45,993 bases of DNA from Rhodospirillaceae bacterium (GTDB lineage Bacteria; Pseudomonadota; Alphaproteobacteria; Rhodospirillales; Casp-alpha2), in assembly GCA_018665815.1 (NCBI GenBank), contig JABJBP010000018.1:1-45993 (forward strand), given 5' to 3'. The position numbers and the translations under genes are program-made. This document shows, in pieces, positions 7,457 through 36,514 of the stretch. The number at the start of each line of letters is the position of its first letter. Positions within the stretch are counted from its first letter, which is position 1. The notes below the pieces were generated by a model. The model was not told where the DNA came from. It saw nothing but the letters and a program-made list of their open reading frames with translations, and ran no database searches.

Positions 7457-7894
7457 TTAAATCAGACCTAAGTCCCTGAGCTCAGCGGCCATGGCCGGCG
7501 GCAGTTCGGCACCACCGTGCAGGGATTCGGCTAAATCCCGGGGCGTGTCATCGACTGGATAGTAGCGCCACCCTTGAAAAGCGCGAAACTTCCGAGGTTC
7601 TGTACGAATGTGCTGATGGTCGAGAATAATTGCGCAGGCCGGCCGGCCGTCCTCGCGTTTAAAGCTTTCAAGCCCGAGGATTCGCTGGCGCACCATAACA
7701 ACCCGACGAATAACCCAATACAGCGACCCCCCATCCAGGACTTCCTGGCTTCGCCGTGGCGTGTTGCGGGTAACATGCTGCAAGATTTCCGGCTCGCCCT
7801 TGGCCTGCGCCGCCTCCAAACGGGTTCGGTGAGCACGGACCAAATGGTCGACGTCATCAATCCCAACGCACAATTTGATCAGGTTTACGGTCAT
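7457..7894 (-). CDS. DUF1489 family protein
   Basis: This 145-residue soluble protein opens [18 protein letters not shown] and contains [19 protein letters not shown], the pattern of DUF1489, an uncharacterised family found almost only in alphaproteobacteria. Its start overlaps the LiuE stop by four bases (ATGA), so it is translationally coupled as the last gene of the liu run. No function is known. Linkage to the leucine operon is positional and need not mean a metabolic role. Confidence 0.85.
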
Positions 7895-8799: not shown

Positions 8800-8808
8800 G
8801 GCGCGGGC

Positions 8809-10821: not shown

Positions 10822-10836
10822 GCGTGCGTCCCACCA

Positions 10837-11616: not shown

Positions 11617-11629
11617 CCGTGAATGTCCA

Positions 11630-13237
11630 TCACATCCTGAATACGCCGAATTTGGTTTCTTCAATAGGCGCGTTCAGTGATGCCGAGATCGCAAGGCCCA
11701 GGACCATGCGGGTGTCCTTCGGGTCGATGATCCCGTCATCCCAAAGCCGCGCACTGGCGTAATACGGATGCCCCTGATGTTCGTACTGATCGAGGATGGG
11801 TTGCTTGAACGCAGCTTCTTCGTCGTCGGACCAAGCTCCGCCCTTGGCTTCGATGTTGTCGCGTTTGACCGTCGACAATACCGACGCGGCTTGCTCGCCA
11901 CCCATGACGGATATGCGCGCGTTCGGCCACATCCACATGAACCGCGGCGAATAGGCACGCCCGCACATGGAATAATTACCGGCGCCGAAGCTACCGCCGA
12001 TGATCATCGTGAACTTCGGCACATTAACGGTAGCCACCGCCGTGACCATCTTGGCGCCGTCCTTGGCGATACCACCCGACTCGTACTTTGAGCCGACCAT
12101 GAAACCTGCAATGTTTTGCAAGAACACCAACGGAATTCGGCGCTGGCCACACAGTTCGATGAAGTGCGCGCCTTTCAATGCAGACTCGGAAAATAAAATG
12201 CCGTTATTGGCGACGATGCCCACGGGATAGCCGAAAATCCGGGCGAAGCCGCAGACCAGCGTGGTACCGTAGTTCTGTTTAAACTCATCGAAGTTTGAGC
12301 CATCGACCGTGCGCGCAATTACCTCGCGCACATCGAAGGGTTTTTTCAGGTCAGTGGGCACGACGCCGTAAAGTTCTTCCGCCGGGAAAAGCGGCTCTTG
12401 TGGGTCCCTGACGTCGATGTCGATAGACTTCACTCGGTTCAAATTTCCAACAATTCGACGGGCTGTGGCCAACGCATGATCGTCGTCTCGGGCCATATGA
12501 TCGGTAACACCAGAAACCTTTGAATGCACCTCGGCGCCACCCAAATCCTCGGAACTGACAATCTCGCCCGTTGCCGCCTTCACCAGCGGTGGGCCGCCCA
12601 GAAAAATGGTGCCCTGCTTTTCGACGATGATGCTTTCATCGCTCATGGCCGGCACATAGGCCCCGCCGGCCGTGCACGACCCCATAACGACGGCGATCTG
12701 CGGAATGCCCAGGCTGCTCATCCGGGCCTGATTATAAAATATCCGTCCGAAGTGATCGCGGGCCGGAAAGACGTCATCTTGAGCGGGCAAAAAAGCGCCG
12801 CCGGAATCTACTAGATAAATGCACGGTAACCTGTTCTGCTCCGCAACCTCTTGAGCACGCAGATGCTTTTTTACGGTGATCGGATAATAGGTACCGCCCT
12901 TGACCGTGGCGTCATTGGCGACAACCACAACCTCGTTCCCTGAAACCCGCCCAATACCGGTAATAATGCCGCCGGCGGGAACCGGATCGTCATACATCTC
13001 ATGGCCGGCCAGTTGCGAAAACTCCAAGAACGGCGAGCCCGGATCCAATAGCCTTCGAATGCGTTCGCGTGGCAACATTTTACCCCGCCCCGTATGCTTT
13101 GTCCGCGCGGCCTCGCCACCACCTTGTTTGATGGTAGAAACAGTTGCATGCAGTTCGTCGATAACCCCCTGCATGGCATCCGTATTGGCGCGGAACTCCG
13201 CAGACGTTGGCTGCGCGGTGGATTTTAGGATACTCAC
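11630..13237 (-). CDS. liuB: Methylcrotonyl-CoA carboxylase beta subunit
   Basis: This 535-residue carboxyltransferase moves CO2 from biotin on LiuD to 3-methylcrotonyl-CoA. Both crotonase-fold halves are present: [22 protein letters not shown] near the start, [21 protein letters not shown] in the first half, and [19 protein letters not shown] and [17 protein letters not shown] in the second. These are signatures of the methylcrotonyl rather than the propionyl type. The start is GTG 13237, six bases after the rhodanese stop, with AAGGGA upstream. Length is normal for the family. Confidence 0.94.
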
Positions 13238-13243
13238 GCTGGC

Positions 13244-13669
13244 TTATCCCTTGTCTGTGCGGGGCGGCCGTTCGCCGACCGGGCCGCCGGCTTCTTTCCA
13301 AGCTTTGAACCCATCGGCAAATTGCACGGCATTGGGATATCCCATGTCGTGCAGCGTCTTGCACGACAGCGCCGAACGCCACGCGGCGGCACAATACAAC
13401 ACGTAGGTTTTGTCTTCTTCGGTCAGGATTTCCTTGTGGTATGGGCTTTCCGGGTCGAACCAAAACTCGACCATGCCACGCGGCACGTGCACGGCGCCCG
13501 GCACCATGCCATCGCGTTCCAATTCACGGACGTCACGGACGTCAACGAATACGATGCTCTCGTCGCCGTCATTGTGGCGTTTGATGGCCTCTTCAATACT
13601 CATCGTGGTAACGACTGCTTCGGCCTCGGCAACCAAATCCTTGATGCCTTTTTTGAGTTTAATCGCCAT
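13244..13669 (-). CDS. Rhodanese-like domain protein
   Basis: This is a single-domain rhodanese of 141 residues. It has the substrate segment VFVDVRDVRELERDGMVPGA and the active-site loop CAAAWRS with Cys93. Such proteins transfer sulfane sulfur or act as redox or arsenate-type modules; the substrate here is unknown. It is embedded between liuB and the DsbA-like isomerase, sharing a TAATG junction with the latter, so it is co-expressed with leucine degradation. A role in handling thiol or thioester by-products is possible but unproven. Confidence 0.88.
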   Translation of the reverse strand: MAIKLKKGIKDLVAEAEAVVTTMSIEEAIKRHNDGDESIVFVDVRDVRELERDGMVPGAVHVPRGMVEFWFDPESPYHKEILTEEDKTYVLYCAAAWRSALSCKTLHDMGYPNAVQFADGFKAWKEAGGPVGERPPRTDKG

Positions 13670-14271
13670 TACGCCGCTTCTCCCTTAATCCACCGTTTGA
13701 TCATCCAAAGCCGGTCATTGCCCCAAAAACCTTCGCCATCAACAATAAAGAACGGCGCCCCAAAGACCCCGGCATCAATGGCAGCCGCCGTCTCGTCTTT
13801 CAGGCGTTGCTTGACTGCGTCGTCATTGACCGCGGCCAGCAAGGCGTCTTGATCAACCCCCAAGGGTGCCGCCACCTCAGCTATGGCGTCCGCCGATGTG
13901 ATGTCGCGTCCTTCACCGAAATAGCGCGCGAAGGCCGCCTTGGCGAAAGATTTCGCAAGGTCCGGATTGTCGTCGTTCAGCCAATAAAAGGCGCGCGCTG
14001 CGGCCTGTGTTGGGATGGGAAACGGGTCAGGCATGGTCCAAGCGATATCCATCATCTTGCTCATGCGTTCCCAATCGTGGCGGCAATAATCGCCCTTCAT
14101 GGGGATTGTCGTCAGTGGCTGAGAGTTCGTGACTTTGAACAATGCGCCCAACAGAAACGGCTTCCATTCGCAGGTGCGTCCGCAGGCCTCAACTGTGAAA
14201 TCGATTTTCTGCGCCGCGAAGTATGAATACGGCGAAGAGAAATCAAAGTAGAACTTAACCGGATCGCTCAT
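13669..14271 (-). CDS. DsbA-family isomerase (2-hydroxychromene-2-carboxylate isomerase-like)
   Basis: This 200-residue protein is a thioredoxin-fold kappa-GST relative. The N-terminal FYFDFSSPYSYFAAQKI carries the serine (Ser13) that replaces the DsbA CxxC and binds glutathione. The C-terminal part GVFGAPFFIVDGEGFWGNDRL is the second family hallmark. NahD members isomerise hydroxychromene carboxylate in naphthalene degradation, but many homologues lie in fatty or amino-acid catabolic operons with unknown substrates. It overlaps the upstream acyl-CoA dehydrogenase by four bases, so coupling is tight. Treat the name as a family label. Confidence 0.87.
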   Translation of the reverse strand: MSDPVKFYFDFSSPYSYFAAQKIDFTVEACGRTCEWKPFLLGALFKVTNSQPLTTIPMKGDYCRHDWERMSKMMDIAWTMPDPFPIPTQAAARAFYWLNDDNPDLAKSFAKAAFARYFGEGRDITSADAIAEVAAPLGVDQDALLAAVNDDAVKQRLKDETAAAIDAGVFGAPFFIVDGEGFWGNDRLWMIKRWIKGEAA

Positions 14272-15407
14272 TCCTGTTCCTCCTGAATGGCGCGGGCGAT
14301 AACGAGTTTTTGGACCTCGCTGGTGCCTTCGTAAATTTGACAGACCCGGGCGTCACGATAGAGGCGCTCGACCGGGAAATCGGTCAGATACCCATAACCG
14401 CCGTGAATTTGGATGGCATCGGAACAAACACGTTCCGCCATCTCAGACGCGAACAGCTTCGCCATCGAGGCTTCCTTCAGGCACGGCTCACCGGCGACTT
14501 TCAGGCGCGCCGCGTTCAGCATCAATTGCCGGCCAGCCTCGATTTGGGTCGCCATTTCGGCCAACTTGAAGGCAATCGCTTGATGATCAGCGATCTTCCT
14601 GCCGAAGGTCTCGCGCTCATTGGCATAGGCCTTGGCAGCGCGGAACGCTGCATTGGCGAACCCGACAGACTGCGCCGCGATGCCGATGCGCCCGCCTTCC
14701 AAGTTTGAAAGCGCAATCTTGTAACCCTCGCCCTCTTCCCCCAGCAACAGGTCGGGGGGCAGCTTCACGTTGTCCAAGACAATCTGCGCCGTATCAGATG
14801 TCTTCTGGCCCAATTTGCGTTCAATGCTGGCGACTTGGTAGCCGGGGTTGTCGGTCGGCACGATAAACGCCGAGATGCCACGTGCCCCCTTATCGGGGTC
14901 GGTGACCGCGAAGGTCACCGCAACATCGGCATTGGCACCGGTGGTGATGAACTGCTTTGTGCCGTTGAGGATATACTGATTGCCATCCTTTTCCGCCTTG
15001 CAGCGGATCGAGCCCGCGTCCGATCCAGTGTGCGGCTCGGTCAGCATGAAAGCGCCGAGTGTTTCACCAGATGCCATTTTCGGCAAAAACCGTTTTTTCT
15101 GCGCCTCATTGCCGTAAGCCAACAAACAGGTTTCGGTGACGGTCTGAACAGCCATGGTCGTTGACGTACCGCCATCGCCGCCGGCGATCTCGGATAATGC
15201 GAGGGCGTAGGAGATAAAATCCGCACCGGCGCCGCCCCATTCTTCAGGCACCAGAATGCCCATCAAGCCCAACTCACCCATTTCCCCGACGGCATCTTTC
15301 GGAAAATGTCCCTCGCGGTCCCACTCTTCGGCGTTCGGCGCCAGTCGATCAGCGGCAAAGCGCCTGGCGGTTTCCTGAATAAGCAGATGTTCTTCACTAA
15401 GCTGCAT
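14268..15407 (-). CDS. Acyl-CoA dehydrogenase, short/branched-chain type
   Basis: This 379-residue FAD flavoenzyme oxidises an acyl-CoA to the 2-enoyl-CoA and passes electrons to ETF. Visible motifs are MLTEPHTGSDAGSIRC (FAD and substrate loop), the central SNLEGGRIGIAAQSVGFA, and QIHGGYGYLTDFPVERLYRDA. The C-terminal IYEGTSEVQKLVIAR carries the catalytic Glu position of short-chain enzymes. It differs from LiuA, whose base is in the middle. Isobutyryl-, 2-methylbutyryl- or butyryl-CoA are candidate substrates. It follows the SDR gene with a 21-base gap. Confidence 0.9.
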   Translation of the reverse strand: MQLSEEHLLIQETARRFAADRLAPNAEEWDREGHFPKDAVGEMGELGLMGILVPEEWGGAGADFISYALALSEIAGGDGGTSTTMAVQTVTETCLLAYGNEAQKKRFLPKMASGETLGAFMLTEPHTGSDAGSIRCKAEKDGNQYILNGTKQFITTGANADVAVTFAVTDPDKGARGISAFIVPTDNPGYQVASIERKLGQKTSDTAQIVLDNVKLPPDLLLGEEGEGYKIALSNLEGGRIGIAAQSVGFANAAFRAAKAYANERETFGRKIADHQAIAFKLAEMATQIEAGRQLMLNAARLKVAGEPCLKEASMAKLFASEMAERVCSDAIQIHGGYGYLTDFPVERLYRDARVCQIYEGTSEVQKLVIARAIQEEQE

Positions 15408-15428
15408 GACGATGTCCTAACAAGGGGC

Positions 15429-16112
15429 CTACCAAGGGATTTTTGAGCCGTCGTGATTGAAGAAGTGCCCATTGTCAGCAGGTCCGAGGCCGGCAATGAC
15501 TTTACGTAACCGTGCGATGCTTTCCGTTGGCGTCAGATCGCCACCGTCGCCACCCATGTCGGTCTTCACCCAACCCGGATGCAGGAGGGCGACGATCAGG
15601 CCCCGGTCCGCAGTGTCATGAGCAAAGCTCACCATAGCGGCGTTCACGGCGGCCTTCGATGAGCGGTAAACATAGAAATCACCCGACGTGTTATCGGCGA
15701 TGGACCCCATCCGCGACGACACGGTGACCAGCTTTTTCTGATCACCTGCCGCGACATTTCCGGCGAACGCCGCAGCTACCTTTAGAGGCGCCATGACATT
15801 CACCCGCATGACTTCTTCCCACGCGGCATAATCGATGTCTTCCGGCTTGTAGTTCCGCGGCCCGTATATGCCGGCATTGTTGATCAGCACATCAATCGCC
15901 ACGCCATTCAAATCCTTGGCCAGGTGATCGACTTGTGGGTGGTTGGCGACATCCAACCCATGAACCTGGATATCACCTTCGATCGTTGCCAGTTCGCCCG
16001 GATTAAACGGATCGCGGCAGGTGCCGATCACCGTCCAGCCGTCGGCACCATATTGGCGCGCAAATTCCAACCCCAATCCCCGGTTCGCACCGGTAATCAT
16101 CACTGTCGGCAT
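15429..16112 (-). CDS. Short-chain dehydrogenase/reductase (SDR)
   Basis: This classical SDR of 227 residues has the cofactor loop TGANRGLG (7-14), NNAG (78-81), catalytic Ser132/133, and Tyr149-x3-Lys153 in YRSSK. Arg32-Asp33 after the second strand (TCRD) suggests NADP(H) preference. It resembles the sniffer/CsgA-like group of small SDRs. The oxidised or reduced substrate is not evident; in this operon a hydroxyacyl or carbonyl intermediate is plausible. The RidA gene ends three bases upstream of its start, so they are co-transcribed. Confidence 0.88.
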   Translation of the reverse strand: MPTVMITGANRGLGLEFARQYGADGWTVIGTCRDPFNPGELATIEGDIQVHGLDVANHPQVDHLAKDLNGVAIDVLINNAGIYGPRNYKPEDIDYAAWEEVMRVNVMAPLKVAAAFAGNVAAGDQKKLVTVSSRMGSIADNTSGDFYVYRSSKAAVNAAMVSFAHDTADRGLIVALLHPGWVKTDMGGDGGDLTPTESIARLRKVIAGLGPADNGHFFNHDGSKIPW

Positions 16113-16115
16113 AGC

Positions 16116-16502
16116 TCACCTCTCCCCTTGTCGTTTTGCCGTCACTTCAATTTCGATTTTCATACGCGGATCAATAAGATCGGCGATGATCGCCGTGGCG
16201 GCCGGGCGTGCGTCGCCCAGTATCTCGCCTAGCACCACGCCGATGATGTCCCAATCATCCGCATTTTTGACGATGTAGCGCGCCCGGACGATATCGCCTA
16301 TGGATGCATCCGCTTTGCCGAGCGCTGTTTCAATATTCGCGAAGGTCTGGCGGGTTTGTTCAGCGGCGTCATCGGAAATGGTTCCCGCTGCATAATCGAA
16401 ACCCGTTGTGCCGGCGACGAAAATCCAATCTCCGTCGACCACGGCGCGTGAATAACCGTAGCGCGCTTCCATGTCCGAACCAGATGAAATCAGTTTGCGC
16501 AT
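16116..16502 (-). CDS. RidA/YjgF-family protein
   Basis: At 128 residues it has the length of a single RidA subunit. It contains the pattern GDWIFVAGTTGFDY near the start, QTRQTFANIETALGKA in the middle and RARYIVKNADDWD later. The last lacks the exact C-terminal IEIEA form but ends MKIEIEVTAKR. RidA proteins hydrolyse reactive enamines and imines from PLP enzymes; Rid subgroups also sit in amino-acid catabolic operons, as here. The arginine after VKN-type strands that defines deaminase-active RidA is not clearly placed, so activity is uncertain. Confidence 0.85.
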   Translation of the reverse strand: MRKLISSGSDMEARYGYSRAVVDGDWIFVAGTTGFDYAAGTISDDAAEQTRQTFANIETALGKADASIGDIVRARYIVKNADDWDIIGVVLGEILGDARPAATAIIADLIDPRMKIEIEVTAKRQGER

Positions 16503-16510
16503 CGTCGTCC

Positions 16511-17701
16511 CTAATTCAATCGTTCGACCGACAAGGCCGTGGCTTCACCGCCGCCAATACACAAGCTGGCGACACCTTTTTTGAGATCATATTTCTTCAA
16601 GGCGTTGAGCAGGGTCACAACGATCCGCGCCCCCGATGCCCCGACCGGATGACCAAGCGCACACGCGCCGCCATGCACATTGATTTTGTCGTGGGGGATA
16701 TCCAGATCGCGCATCGCCGCCATGGTGACCACGGCGAAGGCTTCGTTGACCTCGAACAGATCAACGTCGTCCTTGGCCCAGCCAGATTTGTCCAAAACCT
16801 TTTCGATGGCGCCGATGGGCGCCGTGGTGAACCAGTTCGGCGCCTGGGCGTGGGTCGCGTGGGCATGGATCACGGCGATCGGCGCGAGGCCGCGCTTTTC
16901 AGCTTCAGACCGGCGCATCAGCACCAATGCCGCCGCGCCGTCGGAAATTGACGACGAATTCGCCGGCGTGACCGTGCCGCCCTTGCGGAAAGCCGGCTTC
17001 AATTGTGGAATTTTTTCAATATTGGCGTTGTGGGGTTGCTCGTCGGTTTCAACGACGATGTCCCCTTTGCGCGTCGTCACGATGATCGGCTCAATCTCGG
17101 GTGCGAAGGTGCCGTCCTCAACAGCGGTCTTGGCGCGGTTCAGTGATTCGATGGCGAAATCATCCTGCGCCTCGCGGGTGAACTGATAGTGCTCGGCGCA
17201 ATCCTCGGCGAAGGTACCCATCAAACGACCTTCATCGTAGGCGTCTTCCAGACCGTCAATGAACATATGGTCCTTGGCCACGTCGCCATGGCCCAGCCGA
17301 TAGCCGGCCCGTGCCTTGGGTAGGATATAGGGCGCGTTGGTCATGCTCTCCATGCCGCCGGCGACCATGACATCGTGCGAGCCGGCCAAAATGTTGTCAT
17401 GCGCCAGCATCGTTGCCTTCATCGCCGAGCCGCACATTTTTGATATCGTCGTCGCACCCGCGCCCCACGGGATGCCGGCGTTGTGGGCTGCCTGGCGGGC
17501 CGGCGCCTGCTTGACGCCCGCGAACAGACAAAGCCCCATGATAAGGTCTTCGACATCTTCCGGCGCGACCCCAGCGCGGCTCAATGCCGCCTTAATAGCG
17601 TGACCGCCAAGTTCCGGCGCAGACAGGGCCGACAACGCACCCTGGAACCCACCCATGGGGGTTCTGGCGGCGCCGACAATGACAATGGGGTCTTCCTGCA
17701 T
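16511..17701 (-). CDS. Acetyl-CoA acetyltransferase (thiolase)
   Basis: This 396-residue biosynthetic/degradative thiolase interconverts acetoacetyl-CoA and two acetyl-CoA. The nucleophile is Cys90 in ISKMCGSAMKA. The C-terminal pair is His351 in GHPVGASGAR and Cys381 in CIGGGEATAL. The start is set at ATG 17701 because AGGAG lies upstream and the protein then begins MQEDPIVIVGAARTP; a longer frame to 17770 would run into the cupin gene. In this operon it would consume acetoacetyl-CoA made from the leucine product acetoacetate. Confidence 0.93.
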   Translation of the reverse strand: MQEDPIVIVGAARTPMGGFQGALSALSAPELGGHAIKAALSRAGVAPEDVEDLIMGLCLFAGVKQAPARQAAHNAGIPWGAGATTISKMCGSAMKATMLAHDNILAGSHDVMVAGGMESMTNAPYILPKARAGYRLGHGDVAKDHMFIDGLEDAYDEGRLMGTFAEDCAEHYQFTREAQDDFAIESLNRAKTAVEDGTFAPEIEPIIVTTRKGDIVVETDEQPHNANIEKIPQLKPAFRKGGTVTPANSSSISDGAAALVLMRRSEAEKRGLAPIAVIHAHATHAQAPNWFTTAPIGAIEKVLDKSGWAKDDVDLFEVNEAFAVVTMAAMRDLDIPHDKINVHGGACALGHPVGASGARIVVTLLNALKKYDLKKGVASLCIGGGEATALSVERLN

Positions 17702-17711
17702 CTCAACACTC

Positions 17712-18209
17712 CTAGGATTGGTCTTCGAAAGGCGAGCCATCTTTGTGGGCGAACTGCATACTGCGCCCATCCTTGGACTCGCCGTGTAAATCGATATCGG
17801 GATAGTTACAGCTGTCGCCGGGAACCCGGTCGCCGACTTCCAGATAGACGGCGACTTGATCGGTTTTGTTCATCAACTGATGGCCATCTATCTCGCCGGC
17901 GGGAAACCCCATGGCCATGCCGGGCCCGAGCGTTTGTTCACCGTCGTCCATGATCAACGTCAGGTGGCCTTCCAGGACATAGACGAATTCGTCTTGTTCC
18001 GTGTGCCAATGGCGTTGCGCTGAGCCCTCGCCGGGCGGCACATGGACAATGTTGACGCCATAGTGTGTCAGCCCGAAAGCATCCCCCATGGAACGCTTTT
18101 CGCGATCCATCGACACGGCGTCATAAGGCGCCGGATAGGCGGACCCGATCCGGGGCGATAACGTCATCGGGTCAAGCGCCGTCTTACGTGGTGTCTCAAT
18201 GGCCATCAT
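17712..18209 (-). CDS. Cupin domain protein
   Basis: This 165-residue single cupin has motif 1 QRHWHTEQDEFVYVLEG with two His and a Glu for a metal, and a looser motif 2 FPAGEIDGHQL with the third His. The order and spacing fit the Cupin_2 fold. The N-terminal 40 residues and a charged tail (DLHGESKDGRSMQFAHKDG) are outside the barrel. Its reaction is unknown. It lies between the small membrane protein gene and the thiolase with gaps of about 10 bases, so it belongs to the same transcript. Confidence 0.85.
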   Translation of the reverse strand: MMAIETPRKTALDPMTLSPRIGSAYPAPYDAVSMDREKRSMGDAFGLTHYGVNIVHVPPGEGSAQRHWHTEQDEFVYVLEGHLTLIMDDGEQTLGPGMAMGFPAGEIDGHQLMNKTDQVAVYLEVGDRVPGDSCNYPDIDLHGESKDGRSMQFAHKDGSPFEDQS

Positions 18210-18218
18210 ACGCGTCCT

Positions 18219-18677
18219 TTATCCAATAATGTAATCAGCTACCGGCAGCACCAGTGCGGTGGCATAACCGACAACAATCACCCGCGCCCAAACGCCCCGG
18301 GTCTTGACCTCACAATTATCTGCGCAGCGCCAAACCGAAACCAACGACCAAACGATAAACGGCAGATAAATTGCGGCCAGCAAGGCCGCCCCGCCAGCTA
18401 GTCCCCACGCACCCGCGCCGATGGAACCGGGATCAGAGACGAACCCAGCCAACATGCCAAAGACCATCAGACCACAGCCGACCCCCAGAACGACGCCGTG
18501 CCCAAAGACAAAATAAACCCAAAATATTTCCTGCAATTCGAGATGCCCTTGCCAAGCCAGCTTCCAGACAGACCCTTCCCTTTCGGGTTGCCAGTTGGGC
18601 CCCCGATCAGGGCCGCCACCCGACGGGCCGCGGCCGGTACCGAACTGATCAACAAAAATGGGGCCTTGGTCGCTCAA
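18219..18677 (-). CDS. Small membrane protein, unknown function
   Basis: From a TTG at 18677 this gives 152 residues. GAGGG overlapping the liuA stop lies 8 bases before that TTG, which makes it a better start than the frame limit at 18719. The first 48 residues are polar and Gly/Pro-rich (GRGPSGGGPDRGPN). Three hydrophobic segments follow at about 50-78, 88-113 and 130-148. A motif SLVSVWRCADNCEVK with two Cys lies between the second and third. I do not recognise the family. Position in the operon implies co-expression with liuA. Confidence 0.65.
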   Translation of the reverse strand: MSDQGPIFVDQFGTGRGPSGGGPDRGPNWQPEREGSVWKLAWQGHLELQEIFWVYFVFGHGVVLGVGCGLMVFGMLAGFVSDPGSIGAGAWGLAGGAALLAAIYLPFIVWSLVSVWRCADNCEVKTRGVWARVIVVGYATALVLPVADYIIG

Positions 18678-18687
18678 TGCATCACCC

Positions 18688-19860
18688 TCAAGCCGTCTCT
18701 TCAAACAGTTCGCGGCCAATCAGCCAGCGGCGGATTTCAGACGTGCCGGCGCCGATCTCGTAGAGTTTGGCGTCACGCAGCAATCGTCCGGTGGCGTATT
18801 CGTTGATATAGCCATTGCCGCCCAGGCATTGGATCGCTTCCAGAGCCATCCAAGTGGCTTTTTCAGCGGCGTAAAGTATGGCCCCGGCGGCATCCTTGCG
18901 GGTTGTCTGGCCGCGGTCGCAGGCTTGAGCGACAGTGTACACGTAGGCCTTGGCCGCATTCATCGTGGTGTACATATCGGCGATCTTGCCCTGCATGAGC
19001 TGGAAAGAGCCAATGGGCTCACCAAACTGCTTGCGCTCGCGCACGTATGGCAACACCACGTCCATGCAGGCCTGCATGATGCCGGTCGGCCCCGCTGACA
19101 GCACCGCGCGCTCATAATCCAGGCCGCTCATCAAGACGTTGACGCCGCGCCCGACCTCACCCAGGACGTTTTCTTCCGGCACCTCGCAATCGACAAAGAC
19201 CAGTTCACAAGTGTTGGAGCCGCGCATGCCCAACTTGTCGAGTTTCTGTGCCGTCGAAAACCCCTTAAAACCTTTTTCGATAATGAACGCCGTGATGCCG
19301 CGCGACCCGCTATCAGGGTCGGTTTTTGCATAAACCACCAGGGTGTCGGCATCCGGGCCGTTGGTAATCCACATTTTGTTGCCGTTGAGGATATAGCGAT
19401 CACCCTTCTTTTCCGCGCGCAGGCGCATGGAAACGACGTCGGAGCCCGCACCCGGCTCGCTCATGGCCAGCGCGCCGATGTTTTCGCCGCTGATCAGCTT
19501 CGGCAAGTATTTGGATTTCTGTTCGGCATTGCCGTTGCGGTTGATCTGATTGACGCAGAGATTGGAATGCGCGCCGTAGGACAAACCGATGGAGGCGGAC
19601 GCCCGGCTGATTTCCTCCATGGCGACGACGTGTTCCAAATACCCCATGGCAGCGCCGCCGTATTCCTCATCAGCGGTCACGCCGAGCACGCCAAGCTCGC
19701 CCATCTTCAGCCAAAGGTGCATGGGAAACTCGTTATTCTCATCGGTTTCCGCAGCCAATGGCGCTATTTCATTGTCGGCGAAACTGCGCACGGAATCGCG
19801 CATCATATCGGCGGTTTCGCCCAGACCGAAATCGAGGCTTGGCAATTCATTGGGAATCAT
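18688..19860 (-). CDS. liuA: Isovaleryl-CoA dehydrogenase
   Basis: This 390-residue acyl-CoA dehydrogenase turns isovaleryl-CoA into 3-methylcrotonyl-CoA, donating electrons to ETF. Diagnostic is the catalytic Glu250 in [10 protein letters not shown], the central location typical of isovaleryl-CoA dehydrogenases (Glu254 in the human enzyme). [13 protein letters not shown] (133-145) and [21 protein letters not shown] are present. The start at ATG 19860 has GAGGAC upstream. A 57-base gap to paaI is the longest in the operon and could hold a secondary promoter, though I see none that is convincing. Confidence 0.94.
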
Positions 19861-19917
19861 GTGTTCGTCCTCGGGTCTGGGTCTGGGGCTGGGCCTTAAA
19901 CGTATATTAAATACAGA

Positions 19918-20373
19918 TTAGCCGCTCACGTCCGAGCGGCCAACGATCCTCATCATGGTTTGCTGCATGATGGCGCAGACGGTTTCCTTGCCGTCATCCA
20001 CGGCGATCACTTCGCCTTTGGTCACCGTCAACGTCCTTCCCGGCTTGATGACTTCGCCCCGCGCAATCAATTTGTCACCTTTCGCCGGCGCCGTCAGGTT
20101 GAGCTTGAATTCAACGGTCAATACACCGTCGCCTTCCTCGAACAATGAAAATGCCGCGTACCCGCCGGCTGAATCGACAATCGCCGAGGTCGCCCCGGCG
20201 TGAAAGAAGCCGTGTTGCTGGGTCAATTCGTCGCGGAACGGCAGATGAATTTCGCAAAACCCCGGTTGGATTTCAGTAATTTCAGCGCCGATAAACGCCA
20301 TCATCGCCTGGTTGTCGAAACTACCCTGGACCATGGCTTCGAAATCGGATGTTCTGGGTTGCAATGCGTTCAT
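19918..20373 (-). CDS. PaaI-family hot-dog thioesterase
   Basis: This 151-residue protein has the core HGFFHAGATSAIVDSAGGYAAF: the HGG-like segment and the acidic residue of PaaI/4HBT hot-dog thioesterases. The strand pattern LTVEFKLNLTAPAKGDKLIARGEVIKPGRT completes the fold. Such enzymes hydrolyse acyl-CoA esters to free CoA; the substrate is unassigned. The start overlaps the AidB-like gene's stop by four bases. In the operon it may relieve CoA sequestration by stalled branched acyl-CoA. Confidence 0.88.
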   Translation of the reverse strand: MNALQPRTSDFEAMVQGSFDNQAMMAFIGAEITEIQPGFCEIHLPFRDELTQQHGFFHAGATSAIVDSAGGYAAFSLFEEGDGVLTVEFKLNLTAPAKGDKLIARGEVIKPGRTLTVTKGEVIAVDDGKETVCAIMQQTMMRIVGRSDVSG

Positions 20374-22055
20374 GTGGCGAGCGCTCGTTGAAGCAATTCG
20401 CTCACCGCCCGGCTATCATCCAGGCGCCCAAATAACGGCCCGTGCCCGGCAACAATGCGGGTCGTAATGAAAGCATCCGCAATCGCTGTCGGGGCGTTTT
20501 GGATCAATAACGCGGCTTGCCACAAATGGGCCAACTTCTCGACCAACAGGCGAGATAGAAACTCCCTTTTGCCTTTGTCGGCGAATGCATCCTTCAACGC
20601 GTCACAGGCCGCACCGAGCGCCGCGTTGCCACTTCGGGCCGCGTTGACTTCATCGAACACCGCCTCAAGGCATCCCGGATCGCGCTCGTCGGCGCGCAAT
20701 ACATCAAGCGCCACCATGTTCGAGCTGCCTTCCCAAATCCCGTTCAACGGCGCTTCGCGGTAAAGCCGGGCCATCGGTGCGTCTTCGATGTAGCCGTTGC
20801 CCCCCATGCATTCCAAAGTTTCGGCGATGAATGCCGGCGCCCGTTTACAGCTCCAGTACTTGGCTATCGGTGGGCCGATGCGTGCCAGCTTAGCCGCAGT
20901 TTCATCACCGCCGGCTTCATCCAACGCACGCGCGACACGCATTGCCAGCGCCAGCGAGCCTTCCACATCAAGCGCCAGGTCAGCCAAGACATTCGACATC
21001 AGCGGCAAATCCACCAAGGACCGCTGGAATGCAAGGCGATGACGGCCATAGTGCAGCGCCAGGCTAAGCGCCTGGCGCATCAATCCGGTCGAACCGACGG
21101 CGAAATCGAGGCGGGTGAAATGGACATCGGTCATCGCTGTCCGTACGCCGTCACCCTCGTCACATAACAACACCGCCCAGGCATCACGGTATTCGATATG
21201 TGACGATGCATTTGAACGGTTGCCGCACTTGTCCTTCAAGGCTTGAATGAACATGCGGTTGCGGCTGCCATCGGGCGTGAAGCGCGGTGCGGCAAACAGC
21301 CCGGGGCCGTTTTCCGTCAATGCCGTGGTCAGCCAGATATCGCCCATGGGCGCCGAACAGAACCATTTGTGGCCGGTCAAAAGGTAAGGTTGGCCGGCAC
21401 CGCGGCCATTGACCGGTTTGGCTCCTGTCGAATTAGCGCGCAGATCACATCCACCGTGTTTTTCGGTCAAGGTCGTCGCCACGGTGATTGCCGTTTTGTC
21501 TTCGATGGGCACCAGCCTTGGATCATAGGTCGTGCCCAGCATCTTTTCCGCCCAAGGCCTGGTTTCGGCCTGGCTTTTCAATATCGGCACGGCAGCGTAA
21601 GCCATGCCCGTCGGGCAACCGACGCCATTCTCGATCTGATTCCAAAGATAACTCAGCGCCGCGCGGGCGACATGCCCGCCGGGCTCGCTTGCGGTCCAAG
21701 CCAGGCTATGGACCTCGGCCTTCATGGCTTCGCCCATCAAGTCATGATAGGCGGGATGATACTCGACCACGTCAACACGCTGACCATAACTGTCGTACCC
21801 CCGGAATTCCGGCAGGTTGCGATTGGCGAGGCGCGCCTTGGTCTGGATACTCGGATCGCCCACCAGCGCACCAAGATCTCGCGCACGCTCTTCCGCCCAT
21901 CCCGCACCTTCGCGGTGCAAAGCTTCGCCGAGTGCCGGGTCTGCATCAAAGGCGTTATAGCCGGCCAATACCGGCGGTGTATTGAAGACCTCGTGGGTGT
22001 CGTCGTCAGTAGCACCGATTGGTACCACCGTGTCGGCGAAGGTAAATTCCGTCAT
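20370..22055 (-). CDS. AidB-like acyl-CoA dehydrogenase
   Basis: This 561-residue protein is longer than ordinary acyl-CoA dehydrogenases, with the AidB architecture: an extra N-terminal region (FNTPPVLAGYNAFDADPAL), the dehydrogenase core, and a C-terminal domain. Hallmarks are GHKWFCSAPMGDIWL, SSHIEYRDAWAVLL and ECMGGNGYIEDAPMARLYREA followed by NGIWEGSSN. In Escherichia coli AidB is linked to alkylation response, but homologues in catabolic operons are thought to act on acyl-CoA. Its place as second gene after the LiuR-type promoter favours metabolism. It overlaps its neighbours on both sides by four bases. Confidence 0.9.
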   Translation of the reverse strand: MTEFTFADTVVPIGATDDDTHEVFNTPPVLAGYNAFDADPALGEALHREGAGWAEERARDLGALVGDPSIQTKARLANRNLPEFRGYDSYGQRVDVVEYHPAYHDLMGEAMKAEVHSLAWTASEPGGHVARAALSYLWNQIENGVGCPTGMAYAAVPILKSQAETRPWAEKMLGTTYDPRLVPIEDKTAITVATTLTEKHGGCDLRANSTGAKPVNGRGAGQPYLLTGHKWFCSAPMGDIWLTTALTENGPGLFAAPRFTPDGSRNRMFIQALKDKCGNRSNASSHIEYRDAWAVLLCDEGDGVRTAMTDVHFTRLDFAVGSTGLMRQALSLALHYGRHRLAFQRSLVDLPLMSNVLADLALDVEGSLALAMRVARALDEAGGDETAAKLARIGPPIAKYWSCKRAPAFIAETLECMGGNGYIEDAPMARLYREAPLNGIWEGSSNMVALDVLRADERDPGCLEAVFDEVNAARSGNAALGAACDALKDAFADKGKREFLSRLLVEKLAHLWQAALLIQNAPTAIADAFITTRIVAGHGPLFGRLDDSRAVSELLQRALAT

Positions 22056-22480
22056 CCCGTCTGTCCCGCCAAAATGGCCACGCCGTTGGCGATAATTTCA
22101 CCAGGGAACGGCCGGGACTTACGGGCTTCGGCGTCCACGCACAAGGCCAATTGATCGGTAATCGCGGCTTCTTCGCCGGTAACACCATGAGTCATCACAT
22201 GACGGAACCGTATTTTCTTGCCAGCGAGTTCCAACAGTTGGGTGCGAACGATCAACACATCTCCCGGCAACAATTCACGTTTGTAGGTAATCACCTGTTC
22301 CACGGCGGCCATGAAAATCTTGTTGTCGCGAATGTAGTCCAGCGTCAGGCCAACGTCGGCGAAGAAATTCCAGGTCGCCTGATCGAACTTCTGCACATAG
22401 TACGCGACGTTCAAATGCCCCATATGGTCACATTCACGAATGTACACGCATCCCCGATGTGTAATCGGCGCTTCAGTCAT
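22052..22480 (-). CDS. 4HBT-type thioesterase, first gene of the liu operon
   Basis: This 142-residue hot-dog protein of the 4-hydroxybenzoyl-CoA thioesterase/YbgC group has the active-site helix RECDHMGHLNVAYYVQKFDQA with the catalytic Asp. The strand VITYKRELLPGDVLIVRT is also typical. Substrate not assigned. The start at ATG 22480 has GGGGAG seven bases upstream. It lies about 37 bases downstream of a TTGACG-N17-TATGAT promoter whose -35 and spacer form the LiuR-like operator, so it is the first gene of the 17-gene run. Confidence 0.88.
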   Translation of the reverse strand: MTEAPITHRGCVYIRECDHMGHLNVAYYVQKFDQATWNFFADVGLTLDYIRDNKIFMAAVEQVITYKRELLPGDVLIVRTQLLELAGKKIRFRHVMTHGVTGEEAAITDQLALCVDAEARKSRPFPGEIIANGVAILAGQTG

Positions 22481-22516: not shown

Positions 22517-22545
22517 ATCATAGTTTACGTTTACGTAAACGTCAA
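22517..22545 (-). promoter_or_regulatory. liu operon promoter
   Basis: On the minus strand TTGACG (22540-22545) and TATGAT (22517-22522) are separated by exactly 17 bases, a near-consensus sigma-70 promoter. The predicted start falls about 30 bases before the first gene. The spacer contains overlapping copies of the unit TTTACGTAAAC, so a bound MerR-type regulator would sit directly between the two hexamers. Confidence 0.75.
22530..22545. promoter_or_regulatory. LiuR-like operator, copy 1
   Basis: TTTACGTAAACGTCAA, containing the perfect palindrome GTTTACGTAAAC (22529-22540), is identical over 16 bases to the site in front of the liuR gene. From memory it closely resembles the LiuR motif described for proteobacterial branched-chain amino acid regulons. 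It overlaps the -35 of the liu promoter. Confidence 0.75.
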
Positions 22546-22632
22546 TTCATACACACGGCCCTGTTGCCAATCACATCGATACCGATCAACCTGCCAAAAA
22601 TTTGACATTAGCCAATAGCAACGGACCAAATT

Positions 22633-23223
22633 ATGCCTCGCCTTTCATCTATCACCACAGACACCATGACCGCCCCGCAACACCGTCTTTTTGATGCCAT
22701 CACCGGGGGCAAACGTGGTGTTGGCCGGCCTATTGAGGATTTTTTGATGCCCGACGGCGGGATGCGGGGGCCGTTTAATGCCTGGCTGCATCATCCGGAA
22801 GTTGGCGAAGCAGCACAGCGGATGGGGGAAATGCTGCGGTTTGAAGGGAGCCTCCCTGCCCCATTGCGAGAACTGATCATCTTAACGGTGGGACGCCATT
22901 GGCGGGCCCAGTATGAATGGTGGGCACATGCCAAAATCGCCCAAAAGGAAGGCCTAGCGGATGACATTATCCAGGCGGTTTACGACGGCACGCCGTTGCC
23001 AAGTGACAATCCTCAAACCCTGGCCACTCACGCGTTTACCCAGGAATTGGTCGAGACCCGTGAGGTCAGCGACGATACCTACGCCCAGGCCCGCGAGGTG
23101 CTTGATGAACGCGAGATTGTCGAAGTCGTCATGCTGGCCGGTTATTACAGTCTGATATCGGCGACGCTGAATGCTTTTCAGATTCCCCTGCCCGATGGCG
23201 AAACACCGCCATTCGGGAAATAA
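22633..23223 (+). CDS. Carboxymuconolactone decarboxylase-family protein
   Basis: This 196-residue all-helical protein has the CMD fold. RELIILTVGRHWRAQYEWWAH aligns with the family core, in which AhpD-type members carry a CxxC; here the positions are occupied by Trp and other residues, so a peroxidase role is unlikely. Members of this longer subgroup have no firmly known reaction. It is transcribed away from the liu operon across 152 bases that hold the LiuR-like operator. That operator might influence it, although no promoter in this direction is convincing. Confidence 0.85.
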   Translation: MPRLSSITTDTMTAPQHRLFDAITGGKRGVGRPIEDFLMPDGGMRGPFNAWLHHPEVGEAAQRMGEMLRFEGSLPAPLRELIILTVGRHWRAQYEWWAHAKIAQKEGLADDIIQAVYDGTPLPSDNPQTLATHAFTQELVETREVSDDTYAQAREVLDEREIVEVVMLAGYYSLISATLNAFQIPLPDGETPPFGK

Positions 23224-23262
23224 CGTTCAGCACCGTCAAGGCGGCCTATAAAACATACCGGC

Positions 23263-24201
23263 CTAGTCATCACCACCCGGCTGATGACCTACGGAATCGC
23301 TGTATTTCTGCAGCTCCCCTTCCTGCAAATAAGCCTCTTCCCAGTCCTTGATTTGATCGAAACCGGCGAAGGTGTGGAAATCGCCAACCGGATGATCCTG
23401 GAAGTCCTTGAAGAATTCAGCTTCCGCCATGGGGCCTTCGTCGCGCATTTTGACAGCGAAGTCATAGACCGCTTTCAGCGTCACCCGCATGGTGGCGCCG
23501 GGTAAGATGGTCAGGGCAATCCCCAATTCATTCATCTCACCCTCATTAAAGCGCGGCGAGATACCCGTCTGGTTATAGAATATAGGCCCGTCGACTTCCT
23601 TACAGATGCGCTCAACCTCACCCCGGTCCGTGGGCCCTTCAACAAAAGCCATGTCGGCACCTGCGGCCAAATACGCATTTGCGCGCTCAATGGCGATATC
23701 GAGGTTGCCGCCATGGGCACCCCGTGAATCGGTTCGGGCAACGATGACGAAATCAGGGTCGATTTCATTTCGCGCATCGGATGCCGCCTTGTATTTACCC
23801 ACGGCCTCGTCGATGGGAATGACTTGGCGTCCGGCGACGTGGCCACAGCGCTTCGGGATAATCTGGTCTTCGATATGCACACCGGCGGCACCGGTCTGGA
23901 TGTATTCGCGAACCGTTCGGATGACGTTGATGGCATTGCCGTAGCCATTATCGGAATCAGCAATCAACGGTACATCGACGGCATTCGCGATATAGCGCGC
24001 GTTGGCATGCATTTCGGTCATGGTGGCCAGGCCTGCGTCGGGCATCCCCAACAGCGACAACGAGGTCCCGTAGCCGGTCATATAGACGGCGGGAAACCCG
24101 ACCTTTTCCAAGATTTTAGCACTCATCGCGTTGTAGCAACCCGGGACAACGAGTGTCTTTCCGGATTTCAAAAGCTCGCGCAGGCGTGTGGTTTGACGCA
24201 C
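23263..24201 (-). CDS. Isocitrate lyase/PEP mutase superfamily lyase
   Basis: At 312 residues this is a TIM-barrel enzyme with the metal-binding DSDNGYG (82-88), EDQ (111-113) and the flexible catalytic loop KRCGH with Cys119. The cysteine loop marks a lyase such as methylisocitrate or dimethylmalate lyase rather than a PEP mutase or oxaloacetate decarboxylase. A methylisocitrate lyase (propionate) role is possible but no prpC/prpD is nearby. The start is GTG 24201 with AGGGAG upstream. It is the last gene of the apparent liuR-led group. Confidence 0.85.
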   Translation of the reverse strand: MRQTTRLRELLKSGKTLVVPGCYNAMSAKILEKVGFPAVYMTGYGTSLSLLGMPDAGLATMTEMHANARYIANAVDVPLIADSDNGYGNAINVIRTVREYIQTGAAGVHIEDQIIPKRCGHVAGRQVIPIDEAVGKYKAASDARNEIDPDFVIVARTDSRGAHGGNLDIAIERANAYLAAGADMAFVEGPTDRGEVERICKEVDGPIFYNQTGISPRFNEGEMNELGIALTILPGATMRVTLKAVYDFAVKMRDEGPMAEAEFFKDFQDHPVGDFHTFAGFDQIKDWEEAYLQEGELQKYSDSVGHQPGGDD

Positions 24202-24253
24202 GGTTAATCTCCCTCAATTCTAATAAATTTAAATTTTCAACTTATTCAACTCG

Positions 24254-25402
24254 CTACTCATCAACGGGGAACCCATAGAGCTGTCCGGCATTCGTGCAGA
24301 TCACTTTGCGTTTCGTTGCGTCCGGCAAGTGGGCCACTTCGCGGGCGATGAATTCCTGGGAATCGGGCCAGACACCGTCAGGGTGCGGGAAATCGGACCC
24401 CCACATGACATTGTCTTCGCCCAGCACATCCAACAGCCTGAGCCCGATGGGATCGCTCTGATATGTCGCGCGGCATTGGCGCTTCCAGTATTCGGACGGC
24501 TTCATGGTGAGCGTCAGATCGGTGAACTGATCTTCCCATTCGAGGTCCATGTGGTCGAGCACATAGGGGATCCACCCGATGCCGCTTTCACCGATGACGA
24601 TGATTAGGTTTGGATTGGCTTCCAATACGCCGCCGTAAATCACCTCCATGACAACCCGCGACATGGCCACTTGGAAGCCCGTGATATGGCAGGCGAAGGC
24701 TTGACGTTGTTGCAATACCGCCAAATGATCCATCGCCGGTTTCGGGGTGCCGATGGTGTGCATGTGCATGGGCAAGCGCGCTTCATCGCAGGCCGCCCAA
24801 AGCGGTGCCCACTCGGGCATGTAGAACGGCAACATGTCGTGAGACCCGGCTATCTCAACGCCCCGGACGGCGCCGCGCTTGGCGACCCGTTCCACTTCGG
24901 CCACGGCGGCGGTGATGTCGTCACTGGGGATGCAGGCAATACCGGCAAAGCGGTCCGGATAGGTTTCGCAAAATTCCGCCAGCCAATCGTTGTAGATTTG
25001 CAGCATGACGACAGCGGCTACTGGGTCGTTCAAACGGTTGCTGGCGCCGAGAATACCATAGAGCACTTCCGCCTGAATGCCGTCGCGGTCCTGATCTTTG
25101 ACCCGCAGGTCGGGCTCGGTCAGGCGCCGGATACCGTTCTTGCCGTCCTCGTAAAGCCCTTCGGCTGCCATCTTGTCGGAACGGTTGATAACGCCCGGCA
25201 CATATTCCCGGCCCGCCGACCCCATGCCGTTGACCAGCCCGAACTCGGCGCCACCCCGGCTGACCCACTTCGGCCCGATGTCGCCCTCGACCACGTATGG
25301 CATGCGGTCCTTGAACGTGGTCGGTGCGTTGTTGGTGAATAAATCCGGTGCCATCCAGGGCAAATCCAGATGGCAGTCGGCAGATATGACGTCGTATTTC
25401 AT
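24254..25402 (-). CDS. Amidohydrolase (ACMSD-like, Amidohydro_2)
   Basis: This 382-residue metal-dependent TIM barrel has VISADCHLDLPWMAPDLF at the N-terminus, PMHMHTIG in the middle, a GESGIGWIPYVLDHMD strand and the terminal GSDFPHPDG with the metal-binding Asp. These are features of the decarboxylase/hydrolase group related to aminocarboxymuconate semialdehyde decarboxylase. The ATG at 25402 is chosen because GGAGG lies seven bases before it; the frame limit at 25426 has no such site. The substrate is unknown. It lies downstream of the AspDH-like gene with a 73-base gap. Confidence 0.87.
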   Translation of the reverse strand: MKYDVISADCHLDLPWMAPDLFTNNAPTTFKDRMPYVVEGDIGPKWVSRGGAEFGLVNGMGSAGREYVPGVINRSDKMAAEGLYEDGKNGIRRLTEPDLRVKDQDRDGIQAEVLYGILGASNRLNDPVAAVVMLQIYNDWLAEFCETYPDRFAGIACIPSDDITAAVAEVERVAKRGAVRGVEIAGSHDMLPFYMPEWAPLWAACDEARLPMHMHTIGTPKPAMDHLAVLQQRQAFACHITGFQVAMSRVVMEVIYGGVLEANPNLIIVIGESGIGWIPYVLDHMDLEWEDQFTDLTLTMKPSEYWKRQCRATYQSDPIGLRLLDVLGEDNVMWGSDFPHPDGVWPDSQEFIAREVAHLPDATKRKVICTNAGQLYGFPVDE

Positions 25403-25475
25403 GCGGTCCTCCATCATTGCCGCCACGGTGGCGGATTAGTGCCGAAGTCCCAACCTCCTGCCCGAAAGTTTCGCC

Positions 25476-26291
25476 TCAGGTGCCAACGGTCAGGGGCGCC
25501 ACCAAGCGCTCCAACGTCGCCATCACCGAAAGCGGTGTCAATTTGCCCGTTGCTGGGTTCTCTTCCGTGGGCACGCCGGCGATGGTCAGCTCAAAACTGG
25601 TCGAGTCCGCATCGACGTTGATGACGTGGGTGTTGCGCTGCATCGCCGGGTCTGCCCAAATTTCATATTCCGTCCGATCAACCCCAATGCCCGCCAGCGC
25701 CAACGCCACGGCGACATTGACGTTGGCCGGAAACTTCGCGGCCGCGTCCCGCACACTACCACTGTACAAACACAGTGGTTCACTGAGATCATCCAGATTG
25801 ATTCCCTGCTCGACCACGAAGGTGGCTTTCTTTAATCCCTCCGGCGGCTTTCGGGTTTTCATGGTGATTGAGGTAACCTCACCCTTGGCCGCCGCGCGGA
25901 CTGCATCAAAACCCACCAAGGCGCCGGTGGCGCAAATGATCTGGGCGCCCGTTTCGCGGGCCGTCTCGACCAAATCCATACGGGTCAGTAGCGACGTCAG
26001 AGTCAAGACGATTAAGGTCTTGCCGGCCGCTACCGTAGGCTCGGCCAACCCTAAAAATTGATCGGGCGGCAAAGCTTCGACCAAAACATCGGAAGCGGCG
26101 ACCAATTTGGCCAAGTCGCTGACAACCGGCGGCGTCTTGAAGTCCGATACGCGCCGGGCGGCGCGTTCTTTTTTACCCGCCGACACGCCGGACAAGCTCA
26201 GTCTCTCAACGCCTCCGTCCAGCCAGCGCGCCACCGGCATGCCGATCGCGCCGAGCCCCGCAACGCCTACTTTCAAATTCTTTCCGCTCAT
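25476..26291 (-). CDS. Aspartate dehydrogenase-like protein (AspDH/DUF108)
   Basis: This is a 271-residue NAD(P)-dependent oxidoreductase with Rossmann loop GLGAIG (12-17). The conserved catalytic His222 lies in RNTHVINVDADS, and NVNVAVALALAG is the AspDH-specific stretch. The family oxidises L-aspartate to iminoaspartate/oxaloacetate. NAD biosynthesis genes that accompany NadX are absent here, so a catabolic or alternative amino acid role is more likely. It follows liuR by 42 bases on the same strand and may be co-transcribed with it. Confidence 0.85.
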   Translation of the reverse strand: MSGKNLKVGVAGLGAIGMPVARWLDGGVERLSLSGVSAGKKERAARRVSDFKTPPVVSDLAKLVAASDVLVEALPPDQFLGLAEPTVAAGKTLIVLTLTSLLTRMDLVETARETGAQIICATGALVGFDAVRAAAKGEVTSITMKTRKPPEGLKKATFVVEQGINLDDLSEPLCLYSGSVRDAAAKFPANVNVAVALALAGIGVDRTEYEIWADPAMQRNTHVINVDADSTSFELTIAGVPTEENPATGKLTPLSVMATLERLVAPLTVGT

Positions 26292-26333
26292 ATTTCCCCC
26301 GAATGTCGTGCCGCCAAAGCCTAAAGCGATGGC

Positions 26334-26753
26334 TCAGCCGGACGCCTGTTGGCCCGCTTTGGGCTGACGTGGCTCTGATTGTTTATCGTTCAGCAGATTT
26401 TCGCATTGTTTTTCGCGCCGGTCGATTTCGTCTAACGCCATTTCGATGTCATCGCGCTGGCCCAGCAACTGGGCTTTGCGTTGGCGCAGTTTATCAAGAA
26501 ACAACTGAAGCTGCGAAACTTCTGAAGGGTCGGCATCATAAAGATCAATCATCGCTTGGATTTCATCCAAGGAAAATCCAAGGCGCTTGCCGCGCATGAT
26601 CAATTGCAGCCGGACCTTGTCACGGGGATGATAGACGCGGCGCTGGCCTCGGCGTTCCGGCGAGATCAGCCCTTTGTCTTCGTAAAACCGGATGGTTCGG
26701 GTGGTCACCCCGAACTCCGCCGCCAACTCGGCAATGCCCCATTGTTCTGTCAT
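26334..26753 (-). CDS. liuR: MerR-family regulator LiuR
   Basis: This 139-residue MerR protein has an HTH and wing (IAELAAEFGVTTRTIRFYED, then GLISPERRGQRRVYHPRD), a helix-loop RLGFSLDEIQAMIDLYD, and a long coiled-coil dimerisation helix (about 80-120). It lacks a metal-site cysteine pair and ends in a polar tail. This matches LiuR regulators of branched-chain acyl-CoA degradation. The start has GGAGG seven bases upstream. The 16-bp operator at 26805-26820 before it is identical to that of the liu operon, implying autoregulation and control of the operon. The inducer, perhaps an acyl-CoA, is not visible. Confidence 0.9.
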   Translation of the reverse strand: MTEQWGIAELAAEFGVTTRTIRFYEDKGLISPERRGQRRVYHPRDKVRLQLIMRGKRLGFSLDEIQAMIDLYDADPSEVSQLQLFLDKLRQRKAQLLGQRDDIEMALDEIDRREKQCENLLNDKQSEPRQPKAGQQASG

Positions 26754-26804
26754 GTTCCCTCCGCCACGGTCACCATGCGACCGCTACAATCCTCACAACG
26801 TTAC

Positions 26805-26820
26805 TTTACGTAAACGTCAA
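26805..26820. promoter_or_regulatory. LiuR-like operator, copy 2 (liuR promoter)
   Basis: TTTACGTAAACGTCAA lies 52 bases upstream of the liuR start codon. On the minus strand it begins with TTGACG, a likely -35, but no clear -10 follows at 16-19 bases. It is identical to copy 1 at 22530. Confidence 0.75.
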
Positions 26821-27733: not shown

Positions 27734-27743
27734 GTCATTTCCC

Positions 27744-36442: not shown

Positions 36443-36514
36443 CTTTGTCTCCACCGTGCTTGGCCCCCGGTATGGACTGTATTAACGGCTCAGACGGGAA
36501 GAATCCAGCGGCCT

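Follow-up and report, generated by a model that had tools for sequence, protein, structure and literature searches.

We focus here on two identical 16-bp sites in a stretch of DNA from a Rhodospirillaceae bacterium (Alphaproteobacteria, Rhodospirillales; NCBI GenBank assembly GCA_018665815.1, contig JABJBP010000018.1), the whole 45,993 nucleotides of which we term the window. Judged from the sequence and its relatives, these 16-mers are very probably the operators of a MerR-family regulator resembling LiuR, which would repress the liu operon for leucine and isovalerate breakdown, its own gene liuR, and more distant units, above all icmF, the gene of a fused isobutyryl-CoA mutase. The evidence comes from the arrangement of the sites in the window, the geometry of the promoters in which they recur, their distribution among genomes with and without the regulator, and the genes behind further copies.

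Putative operators and promoter geometry

A search of the whole window finds the 16-mer TTTACGTAAACGTCAA in exact form at 22530-22545 and again at 26805-26820, as an earlier note on this DNA had reported, and both copies have the same orientation relative to their downstream minus-strand genes. When up to three mismatches are allowed, there are four matches in the window, two of which overlap the first site, for a mean of 0.14 in shuffled sequences. None of the 100 shuffles reached four matches, which rules out a chance repeat as the source of the 16-mers. The first site is also longer than one 16-mer, its full length being 22 bp (TTTACGTTTACGTAAACGTCAA, 22524-22545), in which two 16-mers overlap with a 6-bp shift. 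The earlier note had taken the two operators to be equivalent, but they are not: there are three ACGT elements in that of liu and only two in that of liuR. The proposed TTGACG-N17-TATGAT promoter around the first site is indeed there on the minus strand (22545-22540, then 22522-22517), with 10 of 12 matches to the -35 and -10 consensus. The overlap with the -35 that had been described for this site holds, but it is no peculiarity of it: the second site starts with TTGACG too and therefore overlaps a potential -35 as well. Promoter consensus alone had to be rejected as evidence, since the scan found 3 sites in the window, a number close to the 2.8 expected from shuffles.

The gene beside the second copy encodes a protein with MerR-family domains (PF13411, PF09278), and the liu operon starts 4 kb from it, in agreement with the LiuR-like regulator announced at that place. 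Against the sequences of the PDB, this protein gave 19 matches, mostly named MerR-family regulators (e.g., CueR, CadR and mercury regulators), the best being TipA with an E value of 1.2e-10. In a scan against NCBIfam, no equivalog reached its cut-off and no model named LiuR was found among the 14 matches, so that the name LiuR is drawn from context.

To compare promoters, we used an order sample of 41 genomes, the window's own included, in which a LiuR ortholog is a match at E <= 1e-30. The fetched loci and the own ones together hold 69 sites (4 of them own), and 64 could be assigned to a target, 13 of these by hand after inspection of the open reading frames (ORFs), for example where the first start codon of an ORF lies upstream of the site. 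The five sites without a target gene are in G032 (C29), G024 (C28), G006 (C11), G019 (C12) and G030 (C355, at a contig end), and in G040 six of the seven forward matches were examined. The targets are liu operons (20 sites in 18 genomes), icmF (15), liuR (12 sites in 12 genomes), a second enoyl-CoA hydratase gene (11), an acyl-CoA ligase gene (4), an HpaB-like gene (1) and an SDR gene (1).

The geometry of the liu-operon promoters is strikingly constant. All 20 sites start with TTGACG and contain three ACGT elements, and TAnnnT follows TTGACG at exactly 17 bp in 18 of them. No other spacing from 13 to 24 bp has this hexamer in more than 2 of the 20 promoters; a spacing of 12 bp has it in 9, but there the hexamer lies inside the operator and includes the first T of the -10. 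Among the liuR promoters, 10 of 12 read TTKACG-N17-TAnnnT, and in those 10 the ATG comes 6 to 10 bases after the -10, as in leaderless genes. The liuR gene of the window differs from this pattern in having a leader with GGAGG before the ATG. Three ACGT elements are present at 4 of 12 liuR sites, to be compared with 20 of 20 at liu operons (Fisher p 5e-5), and at 10 of 15 icmF and 7 of 11 hydratase sites.

This geometry bears directly on the mode of action. The best-known members of the MerR family are mostly activators, whose promoters have spacers of 19-20 bp, 17 bp being the normal optimum. LiuR, as a protein of this family, could accordingly be an activator that twists a poorly spaced promoter, and no repressor; in the liu operator, one 16-bp register has its midpoint in the -35/-10 spacer. 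The operators of MerR, CueR and SoxR are likewise dyad-like and lie within this spacer or overlap it, and in this respect the site described here resembles them. However, the spacer is of 17 bp here, in 18 of 20 liu and 10 of 12 liuR promoters, which fits repression by occlusion; a MerR activator with a long spacer was rejected on that spacing. LiuR is moreover described as a repressor (PMC3223726, PMC8871633), and we hold activation to be very unlikely.

In the mechanism that we favor, namely repression by LiuR, the 16-mers would be the operators (ILV or LiuR boxes) of the MerR-family regulator whose gene lies at 26334-26753. A dimer of LiuR would cover the -35 and the 17-bp spacer in sigma-70 promoters of normal spacing and exclude RNA polymerase, and, to go by other species, a signal from the breakdown of leucine or branched-chain acyl-CoA would free the promoter of LiuR. 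The units controlled in this way would be the liu operon, liuR itself and others further away, above all icmF; the HpaB-like gene and the acyl-CoA ligase gene close to acnA are possible additions. The liu operon would probably be bound more tightly than liuR, because its operator has three ACGT elements and that of liuR two. The model in the earlier note, in which LiuR represses a 17-gene operon and itself, finds support in the co-occurrence of regulator and site, the recurrence of the site at the same genes in relatives and the fixed -35/N17/-10 geometry, as far as a LiuR-type regulator acting on both units through a site inside sigma-70-type promoters is concerned; repression itself we infer from promoter geometry and from published descriptions of LiuR elsewhere.

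The site and its probable regulator across genomes

The pattern TTKACGTNNACGTMAA, in exact form, is found in all 22 LiuR-bearing genomes of the order sample and in 1 of the 19 others (Fisher p 9e-11, relatedness ignored), and a reversed control pattern in 2 of the 41. In a class sample of 142 genomes, again with the own one included and with LiuR-like proteins taken at E <= 1e-15, it is present in 28 of 47 genomes with such a protein and in 6 of 95 without (Fisher p 9e-12, relatedness ignored), the reversed control being present in 3 of 47 and 9 of 95, respectively. The site also tends to lie next to the regulator gene: in 22 of the 27 class genomes that have both (own excluded), no more than 300 bp separate it from the liuR-like match downstream. 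Within the order, it is exact upstream of liuR in 12 of 21 LiuR-bearing genomes (own included) and has at most two mismatches in 18 of 21; G004, where this region is at a contig edge, was excluded from the liuR-operator counts. LiuR homologs are near liu genes in Rhodospirillales relatives too. The association extends to the gamma-proteobacterial genus Microbulbifer, where all seven named loci have a slightly relaxed site, six of them in its strict form, upstream of a regulator 53-59% identical to this one, with liuA-D homologs near the regulator in all seven. Terasakiella (loci L020 and L021), a relative that can be cultured, resembles the window in its layout.

These data also bear on the explanation that the 16-mers are operators of another regulator, such as another MerR or a TetR protein, the neighboring MerR gene being incidental. 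The genome does have at least two more MerR-like genes, and the TetR protein LiuQ is described as governing branched-chain amino acid use in some Proteobacteria (PMC5343134). Yet the two other homologs of the regulator that turned up in the genome share only 36% and 39% identity with it. The site, moreover, accompanies the liuR ortholog from genome to genome and, in most class genomes that have both, is immediately upstream of liuR, so that we regard this explanation as extremely improbable.

Probable extent of the regulon and the icmF gene

The genome of the window amounts to 3.89 Mb in 157 contigs, and the genome-wide search for more copies that the earlier note had proposed found a third exact one at C144:56698-56713. 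The gene behind it is icmF, as judged from a match to NF045497 of 1876 bits for a cut-off of 1500. In addition, an HpaB-like monooxygenase gene (C109) is preceded by a copy that differs at one position, and C13 has a weaker copy 5' of an acyl-CoA ligase gene, on its acnA side. At the latter place the longest acnA ORF covers the site, but the match to the acnA family begins only at residue 89, and the real start of acnA is therefore probably downstream of the site. With one mismatch allowed, TTKACGTNNACGTMAA has 9 forward and 9 reverse matches in this genome, when the reversed control has 2 and 2. These sites make at least three units likely members of the regulon, with up to five candidates. 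A regulon limited to the two operons of the window, as the earlier note had it, agrees with the fact that only these two carry sites within the window, but we give it extremely little chance and reject it in its strict form on the third exact copy and the near-copies elsewhere in the genome, the more so as the ligase site recurs in four relatives and the icmF site in all LiuR-bearing genomes where it can be read.

Indeed, with zero or one mismatch, the site precedes icmF in 20 of the 20 LiuR-bearing order genomes with readable upstream DNA. G001, in which the icmF copy starts at a contig edge, is excluded from these counts, and in G004, G006, G008, G014 and G030, which belong to the 20, the contig ends within the icmF copy that follows the site. 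The second enoyl-CoA hydratase (NF006008 above its cut-off in the three examples scanned) is a frequent target in relatives, but we do not claim it for the window's genome, since its ortholog there has no site (6 mismatches at best).

Several observations weigh against LiuR control of this kind. In the class sample, 19 of the 47 genomes with a LiuR-like protein are without the exact site, and the Fisher tests in both samples treat the genomes as unrelated. Of the 80 named loci that encode a LiuR-like protein, only 27 have a slightly relaxed site within 250 bp upstream: 23 of the 36 whose protein is more than 50% identical, and 4 of the 44 with 50% identity or less, so that many distant homologs use another site or are not LiuR at all. 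In four of the 22 LiuR-bearing order genomes (G007, G009, G020 and G037), no exact site was found at a liu operon; in G020, liu-type genes directly follow liuR. Concerning the promoters, the liuR gene of the window has a poor -10 (TGTGAG), and TAnnnT at N17 is present in only 2 of 15 icmF and 3 of 11 hydratase promoters. Since the N17 rule fails at these two targets, only the liu and liuR promoters give firm ground for occlusion.

Finally, a one-mismatch icmF site is also present in three of the five readable genomes scored as LiuR-less (G002, G003 and G015), which are 81%, 93% and 71% complete, respectively, the liuR of G002 being interrupted; G011 and G013 have neither LiuR nor the icmF site. 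The LiuR-less genomes number five here and not six, because the upstream DNA of G016 ends at a contig edge. Our first count, made on exact sites, had given 15 of 20 LiuR-bearing genomes and 0 of 6 LiuR-less ones, and it was dropped. At zero or one mismatch the figures are 20 of 20 and 3 of 5, and the exact pattern had made the icmF site look more strictly tied to LiuR than it is. In G002, a relative from the same genus, the liuR-like gene is split over frames (L225, G002:C7:36000-38000), as a pseudogene or through an assembly error; this genome has no exact site anywhere, but it does have a one-mismatch site before icmF.

Gene neighborhood and relation to known LiuR systems

The features discussed here are collected in Table 1. 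The 17-gene operon of the earlier note is borne out by 17 same-strand ORFs downstream of the first site (22480 to 7457), with no gap larger than 57 bp. Their products are, in the first part, a 4HBT thioesterase, an AidB-like acyl-CoA dehydrogenase, a PaaI-like thioesterase, a LiuA-like acyl-CoA dehydrogenase, the product of a small ORF and a cupin; in the middle, a thiolase, RidA, an SDR, an acyl-CoA dehydrogenase, a DsbA-like protein and a rhodanese; and in the last part, LiuB, LiuC, LiuD, LiuE and a DUF1489 protein. LiuB is the carboxyltransferase, LiuC the hydratase, and LiuD the biotin carboxylase, with a methylcrotonyl-CoA carboxylase BT domain (PF21139); profile matches also place an HMG-CoA-lyase family protein in this operon. 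We read it as an operon of leucine and isovalerate breakdown because the LiuA-like dehydrogenase, LiuB, LiuC, LiuD and HMG-CoA-lyase family genes are present. A 12-bp hairpin (19917-19944, minus strand) lies across the end of the PaaI-like gene and reaches into the beginning of the 57-bp gap, the largest of the operon, which precedes the liuA-like gene. It is a possible partial terminator or RNA-processing site; the window scan found 17 terminator-like sites for 19.2 expected.

Table 1. Position and supporting evidence of the operators, promoter elements and genes discussed.
Feature	Position	Strand	Basis or remark
-10-like hexamer TATGAT, 17 bp from the -35	22517..22522	-	Consensus scan; TAnnnT at N17 in 18/20 liu-operon promoters
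Putative liu-operon operator, 22 bp	22524..22545	-	Three ACGT elements 6 bp apart; includes the 16-mer 22530-22545
-35-like hexamer TTGACG, within the liu operator	22540..22545	-	Consensus scan; TTGACG in 20/20 liu-operon promoters
Putative liuR operator, 16 bp, two ACGT elements	26805..26820	-	Exact copy; recurs upstream of liuR in relatives
TTGACG, possible liuR -35	26815..26820	-	Hexamer 17 bp on (26792-26797) is TGTGAG, a poor -10
MerR-family regulator, LiuR-like, 139 amino acids	26334..26753	-	PF13411, PF09278 and PF00376 above gathering scores
17-gene leucine/isovalerate degradation operon	7457..22480	-	Profile matches and gap coordinates
Aspartate-dehydrogenase-like gene	25476..26291	-	NF009825 above cut-off
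Amidohydrolase gene (Amidohydro_2)	24254..25426	-	Pfam match; possibly in the liuR operon
PEP mutase/isocitrate lyase family gene	23263..24201	-	Profile matches; possibly in the liuR operon
Carboxymuconolactone-decarboxylase-like gene, divergent from the liu operon	22633..23223	+	Pfam match

The liuR gene is followed by the aspartate-dehydrogenase-like, amidohydrolase and PEP mutase/isocitrate lyase family genes, in this order, the first of which is probably co-transcribed with it. An aspartate-dehydrogenase-like gene adjoins liuR in 15 of 21 LiuR-bearing relatives. The carboxymuconolactone-decarboxylase-like gene shares its intergenic region with the liu operator and is for this reason possibly co-regulated with the liu operon; a homolog adjoins the site in G001, G004 and G022. 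On the other side, mgtE is just upstream of liuR in 14 of 21 LiuR-bearing relatives (own region 26861-29246), and in the window a fumarylacetoacetate-hydrolase-like gene lies between the two, as it does in G008. Elsewhere in the window, a second biotin carboxylase gene (34457-36454, minus strand; product 44% identical to LiuD) and a carboxyltransferase gene (40289-41878, minus strand; 33% to LiuB) perhaps encode a propionyl-CoA carboxylase.

The LiuR circuit itself is of a known kind in Proteobacteria and is well supported here. In these bacteria, LiuR is described as a member of the MerR family that represses the use of branched-chain amino acids (PMC3223726), with regulons reported for 103-104 proteobacterial genomes (PMC5343134). 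According to a review, the LiuR of Pseudomonas aeruginosa represses the liu cluster and is antagonized by the presence of leucine or citronellol (PMC8871633). In Rhodospirillum rubrum, an ILV box is reported before liuR itself, the ivd cluster and the liu cluster (PMC7238569); this source names the box, and the strings TTTACG and ACGTAAA are absent from its text.

Compared with the LiuR regulon of Proteobacteria (RegPrecise; Kazakov et al. 2009; Shewanella, Pseudomonas, Rhodospirillum rubrum), the system described here shares the MerR-family repressor type and targets in leucine and branched-chain breakdown. It differs in the 17-gene form of its liu operon, with an AidB-like dehydrogenase, thioesterases, a cupin, RidA, a rhodanese and a DsbA-like protein, and in its liuR, which is separate from the liu operon and probably heads an operon with the aspartate-dehydrogenase-like gene. 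The third difference is icmF, which carries the box here, whereas in R. rubrum, whose branched-chain breakdown pathway is raised on butyrate, an isobutyryl-CoA mutase was sought and judged unlikely (PMC7238569). The link between LiuR and icmF was not found in the literature searched, which did not cover the lists of Kazakov et al. 2009 and RegPrecise, and these may already include icmF.

Isovaleryl-CoA is the substrate of the liu pathway. IcmF interconverts isobutyryl-CoA and butyryl-CoA, as well as pivalyl-CoA and isovaleryl-CoA (PMC10481361). The B12-dependent mutase gene with the same box in all the checkable LiuR-bearing genomes of the order offers a testable extension of the LiuR circuit, and icmF under LiuR would link the conversion of butyrate and branched acyl-CoA with the breakdown of leucine. 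We give about an even chance to a broader proposal, in which LiuR control of icmF would be as constant throughout the order as that of the liu operon, coupling acyl-CoA interconversion to leucine and valine breakdown, and graded operators would release self-repression first. If this is true, the interconversions of butyryl-CoA with isobutyryl-CoA and of isovaleryl-CoA with pivalyl-CoA would be switched jointly with leucine and valine breakdown, and the grading of the operators, with three ACGT elements at liu and mostly two at liuR, would lead LiuR to release its own gene before the others. Genomes of the order with icmF under LiuR offer a direct place to test the link between butyrate and branched-chain metabolism that has been considered for R. 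rubrum.

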